From a virus, in IMG/VR virus record IMGVR_UViG_3300046810_000121, positions 1-20,338 of that record: a DNA stretch of 20,338 nt. One strand, written 5' to 3'. Position numbers and translations under genes: made by a program. The notes under the pieces are model-generated. The model was not told the origin of the DNA. It made no database searches and saw only the letters and a list, made by a program, of their open reading frames with translations. This document shows, piece by piece, positions 17,852-20,338 of the stretch. Every line of letters starts with the position of its first letter. Position 1 is the first letter of the stretch.

Positions 17852-18274
17852 ATGACTGTAACCGAGAGAGACCGCGACATCCTCGCCCGCACGCTGTGGG
17901 GAGAGGCTCGCGGCGAAGGAACAGCCGGCCAGATCGCCGTGGCCTGGGCGATCCGCAACCGCGTGTTCGATGGAAAGGAGAGGTCGTGGTGGGGTGAAGG
18001 CTATGCCGGCGTCTGCCAGAAGCCCTATCAGTTCAGTTGCTGGAACAAGACCGACCCGAACTATCAGTTCCTGATCGGCGTGAAGCAGATTCCGTTTCGT
18101 GAGCTGGCGCAGTGCCGGATCGTTGCTGACCAGGTAATCGACGGAAAGGTGCAGGATCCAACCGGCGGTGCCACGCATTACTACGCCACCAGCATCAAGG
18201 CGCCGGCATGGTCGGTGAAGGCCAAGCAGACGCTCAAGCTGGGCGGACACGTCTTCTTCAAGGATGTGCCGTGA
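17852..18274 (+). CDS. SleB-type cell wall hydrolase (endolysin), 140 aa
   Basis: ATG 17852 has GGAG at 17841-17844, seven bases upstream. GTG 17849 is a less likely alternative. The protein matches the hydrolase_2/SleB family: RDILARTLWGEARGE with the probable catalytic E18, GQIAVAWAIRNRV, YQFSCWN, and the family end GGATHYYATS followed by HVFF. These enzymes cut the peptidoglycan glycan strand. There is no signal peptide, so it needs a holin to reach the wall. The stop overlaps the Rz start (TGATG at 18272-18276). Confidence 0.93.
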   Translation: MTVTERDRDILARTLWGEARGEGTAGQIAVAWAIRNRVFDGKERSWWGEGYAGVCQKPYQFSCWNKTDPNYQFLIGVKQIPFRELAQCRIVADQVIDGKVQDPTGGATHYYATSIKAPAWSVKAKQTLKLGGHVFFKDVP

Positions 18275-18777
18275 TGGTCGTTCCTTGGAAAGCGTTAGGC
18301 GTGCTGGTGTTGGTTCTCGCCGGCTTCGGCAGCGCCTGGCAGCTTCAGGACTGGCGCTACGGCAAACAGTTGGCCGAGCAATCCAGTTTGCACACTGAAG
18401 ACTTCAATCAACTCACCCAAGCTGCCGCTACAGCACAGCAGGCCGAGCAGGATAAGCGCCGAGCGCTCGAGCAGAGGCTGGCGACCAGCGAGCAAGCACA
18501 CTTCGAGAAAATGACTGATGCCCAAAAGAATCAAGATCGCCTGCGCGATCGCCTTGCCACTTCTGATCTGCGGCTGTCAGTCCTCCTCGACACGGGTTCA
18601 GCCGGTGGCTGTTCAGTGCCTGCCGCCCCCGGCGCCGGCGGCGTGGATCATGCAGTCGTACGCGCCCGACTTGACCCGGCGCATGCTCAAAGAATTGTCG
18701 CAATCACCGACACCGGCGACCGCGGACTGATCGCGCTGCAGGCTTGCCAGGCGTATGTGAAGAGTCTGCAGCAGTGA
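18274..18777 (+). CDS. Rz: i-spanin (Rz-like), 167 aa
   Basis: ATG 18274 overlaps the endolysin stop by one base. Residues about 5-23 (WKALGVLVLVLAGFGSAWQL) form an N-terminal membrane anchor. A long periplasmic coiled coil follows (LTQAAATAQQAEQDKRRALE and beyond), with conserved features of DUF2514/Rz-like spanins, and C-terminal cysteines at GGCSVPA and ALQACQAYV. A second lysis gene is embedded in the +1 frame at 18518-18730, the classic Rz/Rz1 arrangement. The protein spans the periplasm with Rz1 to fuse inner and outer membranes at lysis. Confidence 0.92.
   Translation: MVVPWKALGVLVLVLAGFGSAWQLQDWRYGKQLAEQSSLHTEDFNQLTQAAATAQQAEQDKRRALEQRLATSEQAHFEKMTDAQKNQDRLRDRLATSDLRLSVLLDTGSAGGCSVPAAPGAGGVDHAVVRARLDPAHAQRIVAITDTGDRGLIALQACQAYVKSLQQ
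18518..18730 (+). CDS. Rz1: o-spanin lipoprotein (Rz1-like), nested in Rz, 70 aa
   Basis: This gene lies wholly within Rz in another frame. The product starts MPKRIKIACAIALPLLICGC, a lipoprotein signal with lipobox LICGC and probable acylated C20. A short mature region follows with the proline-rich stretch CLPPPAPAAW, both marks of Rz1 proteins. It would sit in the outer membrane and bind the Rz C-terminus. The ATG at 18518 is the first good start; its ribosome site is weak, as is common for nested Rz1 genes. Confidence 0.9.
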   Translation: MPKRIKIACAIALPLLICGCQSSSTRVQPVAVQCLPPPAPAAWIMQSYAPDLTRRMLKELSQSPTPATAD

Positions 18778-18949: not shown

Positions 18950-19189
18950 GTGGCTGAATTGGAAGGCGTAGTGCTGAGCGAGAAGATGCAGAGAGAAGCG
19001 GATCGGCTGCTGGCGCAAATTGTCCGAGCTGATTCGATGATCATCGCTGTAAAGGCGGGAGCACGAGCGGATGGCTTCGTGCTTGGGCTGGACACCGGCG
19101 GGGCTCTGCGCGCCGGCGATGCTGAAAGGCTGTACATCATTTTCGAAGCCGCACTGGTGGAGCGCCTGAAAACGCTGGCACGTAGTTAA
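18950..19189 (+). CDS. Small hypothetical protein at the end of the lysis module, 79 aa
   Basis: The start is GTG 18950, with AAGG at 18940-18943, six bases upstream. The product is soluble: a helical N-terminal half (SEKMQREADRLLAQIVRADS) followed by GLDTGGALRAGDAERLYIIF, a compact mixed pattern. I do not recognise the family. It is the last plus-strand gene of the prophage and runs convergent with the LexA-associated minus-strand gene, whose stop lies 45 bases away. Its separation from host genes suggests a late phage gene. Confidence 0.7.
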   Translation: MAELEGVVLSEKMQREADRLLAQIVRADSMIIAVKAGARADGFVLGLDTGGALRAGDAERLYIIFEAALVERLKTLARS

Positions 19190-19233
19190 TCAATGCTTTA
19201 TTGGTCAGGCCGCCAATTCCTAGCACGGCTTCT

Positions 19234-19959
19234 TCAGCGTGGACCTGCAGGAGCTAGCTTTGTCACAAACCCCTTTCCGGCGCAGGTCGAGCAGTCATCC
19301 CGCGCACTAAAGTTGTCGAGACAATCCGGGCAAATACAGAAAGCTGCCGATTCAATGTGAGGTCGCACTTTTTCAAAAGCGCGTAGATTCCGCTCCTCCT
19401 GAGCGACCTGTGCTGCATCTATAAGCGCCCGGTAAGCATCGGCATCGGATAGTGGTCGGTGCGTTACGCCAGCGATCATTCGTTCGGTCTCTACCAACTG
19501 ATATCGGCGGCCATTCATTTCCAGCACCAAGCCTGAAATCCGCCCAATTTTCCGAGAAAGATTCAGAGTCAGCCGCATACCATCAGCAGCAGAATAGACC
19601 TTGCCGTCGTAGGCGAAGGAAGCGCCGCGCGGTTCATCGCTTTCGAAGTTGAAGATTGACCGGCTGATGGTGCCCAGCAGATTCCCGTTGTCGATCTGAA
19701 CGACATCATAGGTAGAGGCGCCGCGGTAGTGCCCGGGCGAGTTCTGCAGCTCCTCGACGGCGTGCCAGTACGCGGCGTTTGCCATTTCGTTCATGTCGAA
19801 TTGCTCAAGCTGGTCGATCAGGCCCTCATCGCGAAGCGTAGCTGCCATTTCGTGGAGGGTTTCCCGATGCCCCTCTGGGTTTTGCATACGGAAGTCCTGA
19901 TCGTCGAGAGTAGCGCGCCATCGCTGGAGCCGTAGGGTTTTTGCCTGGTCGAAATTCAT
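19234..19959 (-). CDS. Probable SOS-regulated protein with C-terminal zinc ribbon, 241 aa
   Basis: ATG 19959 is chosen because a LexA box lies 22-42 bases upstream; the in-frame start at 20067 would put the box inside the coding region. A ribosome site is not obvious. The N-terminal 110 residues are helical and charged (MNFDQAKTLRLQRWRATLDD, LHEMAATLRDEGLIDQLEQF). A beta-rich middle follows (YDVVQIDNGNLLGTISRSIF, RISGLVLEMNGRRYQLV), then a helix. The C-terminus has C210-x2-C213 and C223-x2-C226 (CPDC, CSTCAGKGF), a DnaJ-like zinc ribbon. The family is not recognised, and a nucleic-acid-binding or regulatory role is only a guess. It may belong to the prophage's right end or to the host. Confidence 0.75.
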   Translation of the reverse strand: MNFDQAKTLRLQRWRATLDDQDFRMQNPEGHRETLHEMAATLRDEGLIDQLEQFDMNEMANAAYWHAVEELQNSPGHYRGASTYDVVQIDNGNLLGTISRSIFNFESDEPRGASFAYDGKVYSAADGMRLTLNLSRKIGRISGLVLEMNGRRYQLVETERMIAGVTHRPLSDADAYRALIDAAQVAQEERNLRAFEKVRPHIESAAFCICPDCLDNFSARDDCSTCAGKGFVTKLAPAGPR

Positions 19960-19981
19960 GCTGCGGGGTTCGCTGTACAAA

Positions 19982-20001
19982 TACTGTATGCGCGTACAGT
20001 A
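19982..20001. promoter_or_regulatory. LexA (SOS) box
   Basis: TACTGTATGCGCGTACAGTA contains CTG-N10-CAG, the LexA operator spacing, with near-perfect dyad symmetry and the TACTGTAT/TACAGTA flanks usual in Pseudomonas. It lies 22 bases upstream of the minus-strand zinc-ribbon gene. A possible -35 (TTACTG) overlaps the box in the minus direction. LexA cleavage after DNA damage should open this promoter. Confidence 0.85.
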
Positions 20002-20211: not shown

Positions 20212-20338
20212 ATGAATGAGGATTACGAAAAATCTTGGCATCTGGCTGAGCCGGTAATCGTCGTTGAGGACGACTCTATACTTCGCGGCCTGATGATAGA
20301 TATTTTGTCCGAAATAGGTTTGCGCTCGCAGAGCTTTG
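20212..20338 (+). CDS. Response regulator, N-terminal receiver domain (partial)
   Basis: ATG 20212 has AGGA at 20200-20203, eight bases upstream. An ATG at 20207 meets a stop after two codons. The visible 42 residues include PVIVVEDDSILRGLMIDILS followed by EIGLRSQSF. This is the opening of a CheY-like receiver: strand one, the acidic pocket E20-D21-D22 (E-D-D), then helix one and the next strand. The phosphorylated Asp and output domain lie beyond the window. Such genes are chromosomal, so this marks host DNA to the right of the prophage. Confidence 0.85.
   Translation, partial: MNEDYEKSWHLAEPVIVVEDDSILRGLMIDILSEIGLRSQSF

Follow-up and report, generated by a model that had tools for sequence, protein, structure and literature searches.

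Gene X, near one end of the 20,338-base virus record analyzed here (the window), is predicted to be the first gene of a prophage operon under the control of host LexA. In relatives, X is followed by a gene for an SRAP protein in a predicted two-gene SOS operon (X-SRAP), and the first position of that operon can be occupied by X, by an unrelated gene (Y), or by neither, in which case SRAP alone follows the LexA box. To our knowledge, most prophage genes described as LexA controlled encode antirepressors or DinI-like proteins. As judged from sequence, the operon described here is distinguished by a LexA box in a prophage setting, SRAP in second position, an exchangeable and uncharacterized first gene, and LexA-boxed methyltransferase genes nearby.

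The predicted LexA operator of gene X

Gene X (positions 19234 to 19959, minus strand) encodes a 241-aa predicted SOS-controlled protein of the phrog_19595 family. In the window, the ORF translation begins with MNFDQAK, ends with CICPDCLDNFSARDDCSTCAGKGFVTK, and contains the C-terminal motif CPDC...CSTCAGKG. The start codon could be fixed because MNFDQAK is strictly conserved throughout phrog_19595-type homologues. Comparison of X with seven homologues gave dN values of 0.04 to 0.13 and dS values of 0.44 to 1.5 (dN/dS of about 0.1). This strong purifying selection, with dN well under dS, supports the ORF as truly coding.

A predicted LexA operator (TACTGTACGCGCATACAGTA; positions 19982 to 20001, minus strand) precedes X and differs from the full LexA consensus (TACTGTATNNNNATACAGTA) by a single mismatch. 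No other site in the window matches this consensus at three or fewer mismatches (0.00 were expected in shuffled sequences), and homologues share its position. The distance from operator to ATG is 22 bp in the window and 19 to 22 bp in homologues; a spacing of 20 to 22 bp recurs in nearly all of the viral loci and in the bacterial genomes. The original prediction had placed a LexA operator 22 bases from the start of a 241-residue protein ending in CPDC/CSTC, and the ORF, the operator, and the spacing were all confirmed. Right after the box, a conserved GTACAG(C/T)GAA sequence includes a possible −10 element (TACAGC/T; positions 19972 to 19977, minus strand); a scan for a consensus promoter for X found none. 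The X mRNA would have a very short 5′ leader with no obvious Shine-Dalgarno sequence.

Conservation of the box was assessed against 5,055 control ORFs from the same loci as the X homologues; the scan of viral contigs for X had returned 71 loci. CTG-N10-CAG was present within 70 bp upstream of 130 of 132 distinct full-length homologues versus 140 control ORFs (2.8%), and CTGT-N8-ACAG was present in the same interval for 94 of the 132 versus 46 control ORFs (0.9%); the homologues are mutually related, so these counts reflect conservation and not 132 independent events. Homologues without the box, which according to the original prediction would have argued against LexA control, are thus essentially absent (2/132). 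The box is also kept in X relatives of about 30% identity from the Pseudomonas aeruginosa phages LPPA36 and Meadow, in which the sequence after the box is otherwise unlike that of the main group. The pattern TACTGTN8ACAG was found in all 24 carrier records (50 to 60 kb), usually at X alone, while the reversed pattern, used as a control, gave 0 matches in the same 24 records. The pattern search also found a site 40 bp before recA in the host flank of locus L110, which served as an internal positive control. Control of X by host LexA, as originally proposed, is therefore strongly supported by conservation of a box that in most carrier records is the sole such site.

The SRAP operon and its exchangeable first gene

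The tail genes of the window are of the siphovirus type, and these, together with the endolysin and spanin genes, are oriented opposite to X. Facing the operon is an Rz-like spanin gene of the lysis cassette (positions 18208 to 18777, plus strand; phrog_2466, 9.5e-56), followed by a late-strand gene for a 79-aa protein (positions 18950 to 19189, plus strand; phrog_36962), a conserved neighbor that marks the operon slot. In 83 of 138 loci, this side of X holds the lysis gene Rz, oriented opposite to X. Of the 30 contigs that are at least 30 kb long, 28 (all but L038 and L054) have X no more than 6 kb from the end that lies behind the gene, and in phage Meadow an integrase-annotated gene is close upstream of X. 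The X family sits after the lysis genes and before the attachment site, in the orientation opposite to that of the late genes.

Beyond X, the window ends within a response-regulator gene carried as prophage cargo (partial, positions 20212 to 20338, plus strand), with full-length relatives in L100, L013, L017, and L021; the relative in L100 (L100:7438-7848) has a PF00072 receiver domain (8.3e-10). A tRNA-Ser gene is found upstream of X in L100, L102, and L117, and in L100 the response-regulator gene lies between tRNA-Ser and X. Because the window's partial ORF at 20212 begins like these regulators, which lie on the tRNA-Ser side of X, the window probably stops shortly before the attachment site and not at it. 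X accordingly lies not quite at the right edge of the prophage, where the original prediction had put it. The possibility that X is a host gene outside the prophage was set aside, as the adjoining response regulator is carried by the phage as cargo and most recurrences of the locus are in the company of phage genes. Large STAND/AAA NTPase genes, possibly for defense, occur upstream of X at L022:136-5082 (1,649 aa) and L109:3786-7958 (1,391 aa).

SRAP proteins of the YedK/HMCES type covalently cap abasic sites in single-stranded DNA. Clustering of neighbors brought out a gene of this type directly after X on the same strand, typically after a gap of 22 to 23 bp; among the 137 loci with at least 1 kb downstream of X, 73 have it. 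The encoded partner matches PF02586 (1.1e-47), and the translation contains the Cys2, Asn, Glu, and His residues of the YedK active site, the roles of which have been described (PMC9436759).

A reverse search from SRAP gave 80 loci, 79 of them with a readable start. X was directly upstream of SRAP in 39 of these 79 phage loci, and most of the others had gene Y (L298:1900-2265 and relatives). Y encodes a protein of 106 to 127 aa with coiled-coil character that begins (V/M)DPLYIEDTDDWLG from a GTG start; it has its own LexA box 16 to 19 bp upstream and gave no match to PHROG profiles. Among the SRAP-side loci with at least 300 bp of upstream sequence, the box was present at 31 of 31 Y loci, 32 of 37 X loci, and 4 of 5 others. 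Four of the five boxless X loci are on contigs that end short of the box position, and one (L048) truly lacks it. Of 80 loci anchored on the 79-aa neighbor, X was present in 48 and Y in 23; another 6 had SRAP and neither X nor Y, and in 3 none of these was detected; in L401, L407, L408, and L410, SRAP lies directly under the LexA box. At the Y-SRAP junctions, about 45 bp still match the X 3′ end, which indicates that the first gene has been exchanged by recombination while the operator and SRAP were kept.

In the window itself, the SRAP gene after X is absent and only a 44-bp remnant is left. Comparison with L033, L049, and L054 identified this stretch (positions 19190 to 19233, minus strand) as the scar that deletion of SRAP left behind: after X come the SRAP leader with its AGGA (GTGCTAGGAATTGGC) and then the SRAP stop-codon region (ATTGATTAAC). 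By this comparison, the window operon was ancestrally X-SRAP, from which SRAP was lost and X kept. Since about half of X loci, the window included, are without SRAP, X is likely to have a function of its own.

Another gene near X also carries a box. A D12-class (Dam-like) DNA methyltransferase gene on the strand opposite X has a LexA-like box (CTGTATGGATAAACAG) 8 to 16 bp before its start in 23 loci, among which the boxes are near-identical and so do not represent independent events. The gene lies about 2.7 to 4.8 kb from X (L111, L112, L060, L143, and others), and the Meadow copy matches PF02086. It is apparently a second SOS-controlled gene of these phages.

Domains and family of the X protein

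X matches phrog_19595 over its full length (residues 4 to 237 on positions 1 to 227 of the 240-position profile; 1.7e-95). This family is a bare sequence cluster of unknown function that comes with no annotation of operon, regulation, or domains. Pfam, NCBIfam, and PADLOC searches with X gave subthreshold matches only (UPF0047 at 0.035, YlmC/YmxH at 0.19, and a partial match to LmuB at 0.006), and a search of phage records with DNA of the X region gave no match. The earlier statement that the family could not be recognized was therefore right in substance: phrog_19595 is the only assignment, with nothing reliable in Pfam or NCBIfam. Matches to phrog_19595 at an E value of 1e-20 or better were found in 23 of 299 Pseudomonas genomes, and a search of 398 genomes across the phylum added to the center genome a single weak and partial match (8.6e-16). 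Within this sample, the X family appears nearly confined to Pseudomonas. Residues W14, P28, E29, E69, E70, Y84, D118, G119, C210, C213, C223, and C226 are invariant over 48 diverse members.

An AlphaFold2 model of whole X (pLDDT 85.9) divides the protein into an N-terminal helical domain, a small beta-barrel, a pair of helices, and the cysteine motif. The helical domain (residues 1 to 75; positions 19735 to 19959, minus strand) is related to phrog_6137, which matches the first 65 or so residues at 2.6e-8. Versions of this domain also occur as stand-alone proteins of about 80 aa on Pseudomonas plasmids (H8 to H12, e.g., L229:3986-4219). In VIA comparisons, the N-terminal helices resembled ribosomal protein S20 and YlaN with Z scores of 7 to 8, which are common for helical bundles. 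The barrel (residues 78 to 168; positions 19456 to 19728, minus strand) was also modeled alone, with a pLDDT of 89.5. Its nearest fold matches were avidins, at nonsignificant Z scores of 6.0 or less and Foldseek E values of 0.1 or more; VIA likewise returned bradavidin (Z of 6), and the middle domain alone gave the same result. Foldseek comparison of the whole model with PDB and BFVD found nothing with an E value below 0.001, and the RIG-I entries that topped this search, with TM scores near 0.1, were dropped as noise.

The C-terminal motif CPxC-x9-CxxCxGxG (residues 210 to 232; positions 19264 to 19332, minus strand) has four invariant cysteines and is a predicted DnaJ-like zinc ribbon. Its CxxC-x9-CxxCxGxG spacing is that of the DnaJ cysteine-rich and anti-TRAP zinc motifs, and the cysteine-pair spacing is invariant in the 48 sequences. 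X differs, however, in having only one motif unit, and the corresponding profile E values are 0.16, for a weak match to the DnaJ cysteine-rich domain 1exk, and 0.39. A sequence search of solved structures with X gave Met-tRNA synthetase and DnaJ at nonsignificant E values of 0.14 to 0.16.

A proposed role in DNA damage tolerance

We propose that these prophages carry a LexA-controlled accessory operon serving DNA damage tolerance, with X as its first gene and, in the window, the sole one left; to this reading we assign about an even chance. In an undamaged lysogen, host LexA would keep the operon off; RecA-triggered self-cleavage of LexA would switch it on directly, independently of the phage CI repressor. 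The SRAP partner would then protect abasic sites in single-stranded DNA. X itself, with its helical domain, small beta-barrel, and zinc ribbon, would most likely be a nucleic acid- or protein-binding accessory factor, and by association with SRAP it would help the lysogen and the induced phage genome to tolerate damage. A damage-response accessory factor is suggested because the SRAP partner points to abasic-site protection; both induction by damage and the tolerance role are inferred. The original suggestion of a phage-carried SOS effector agrees with the presence of SRAP as a partner and of a LexA-boxed methyltransferase close by. Against a tolerance operon, SRAP is missing from about half of the X loci, and X thus does not depend on it; X belongs to no recognized enzymatic or DNA-binding family and has no significant fold match; and guilt by association does not show function.

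The same features might instead suit an SOS-induced effector that blocks host division, transcription, a nuclease, or a defense system in favor of phage production or competition, which we regard as possible but rather less probable. Many genes at phage edges have host targets, first genes that are small and exchangeable, such as X and Y, would suit variable host factors, a zinc ribbon and a barrel would suit protein binding, and the boxed methyltransferase could reflect an anti-restriction set. However, X has no match to known defense or antidefense proteins (the best PADLOC hit, LmuB, is partial, with an E value of 0.006 and 12.9 bits), its partner SRAP is a DNA damage protein, and X is stably kept under purifying selection. 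A study of antiphage defense by DNA glycosylases found that loss of host YedK left immunity unchanged (PMC11078745) and therefore offers no lead to a counterdefense role for SRAP. A further and unlikely reading makes X and Y interchangeable partners of SRAP, e.g., adaptors that read, recruit to, or resolve SRAP-DNA cross-links at abasic sites; the prophages would thus carry an SOS-induced module for handling cross-links, with the adaptor swapped by recombination and the operator and SRAP kept.

Two other explanations turn on the phage repressor. LexA-controlled antirepressors such as Tum of 186, AntC of N15, and GfoA/GftA of Gifsy follow a known logic in which LexA-controlled genes lie outside the immunity region (PMC3121763), and X, being phage borne, LexA boxed, and far from the repressor, could in principle bind and inactivate the phage repressor upon SOS induction and so induce the prophage. 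The antirepressors of the Gifsy phages, however, pair with noncleavable repressors (PMC3121763), whereas 23 of 24 X carriers encode an S24 repressor, and all 12 main-group carrier repressors read have an Ala-Gly site together with Ser and Lys; these features come from relatives, as the window record does not include its repressor. Because of them, carrier phages look SOS inducible without X. Moreover, one X family occurs across phages whose repressors differ widely, and the slot of X can be filled by Y or by SRAP alone. An antirepressor is therefore doubtful. The link between the SOS response and phage development raised in the original prediction is disfavored in this form, since the carriers' repressors look cleavable. 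Alternatively, CI and LexA both belong to the S24 superfamily, so their operators can look alike, and the box could be an operator of the phage's own repressor. We consider this highly improbable, as the only site in most carrier records lies at X, tens of kilobases from the S24 gene, CI operators are expected at cI/cro, and the same pattern precedes host recA (L110).

The proposed damage tolerance operon has partial parallels among known systems. Like the LexA-controlled operons of the Salmonella Gifsy phages (a dinI homologue, an antirepressor, and an irsA homologue) and tum of coliphage 186 (PMC3121763), it is a phage-borne SOS operon outside the immunity region and, by its sequence, directly under host LexA. 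It differs in that no homology to DinI or an antirepressor was found, in that its partner is SRAP, and in that most X carriers have S24 repressors with cleavage features, so that induction does not require X. The portions consulted of a survey by Aravind et al. (2013; PMC3765255) record SRAP genes both within SOS operons and among some prophages, with a possible role as a damage sensor for phage lysis, and report Zn-ribbon neighbors in SRAP-Ku operons. The SOS-controlled setting, temperate phages included, is shared with those operons, but here SRAP is second and the first gene comes from at least two unrelated families (X and Y), and the X/Y operon is without a polymerase, Ku, or ligase. X is not described in those portions of the survey. 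A literature search for an X/Y-SRAP operon found nothing specific, which does not prove that none exists.

The slot is widespread in Pseudomonas prophages and appears to hold an SRAP operon under LexA in phages whose own repressor already seems to be SOS cleavable. If the proposed function is correct, prophages would extend the host SOS regulon with DNA damage tolerance genes, a form of lysogenic conversion that promotes survival of damage, and both X and Y would be candidate bacterial partners of SRAP.

LexA boxes were also observed at two other kinds of genes. In LPPA36, a GAF-domain gene (L073:8723-9667) directly follows X and has a LexA box 13 bp upstream. At L415:212-637, a UmuD-like S24 gene has a LexA box 17 bp upstream; L415 and L038 share one record, which also holds X-SRAP and the LexA-boxed methyltransferase.
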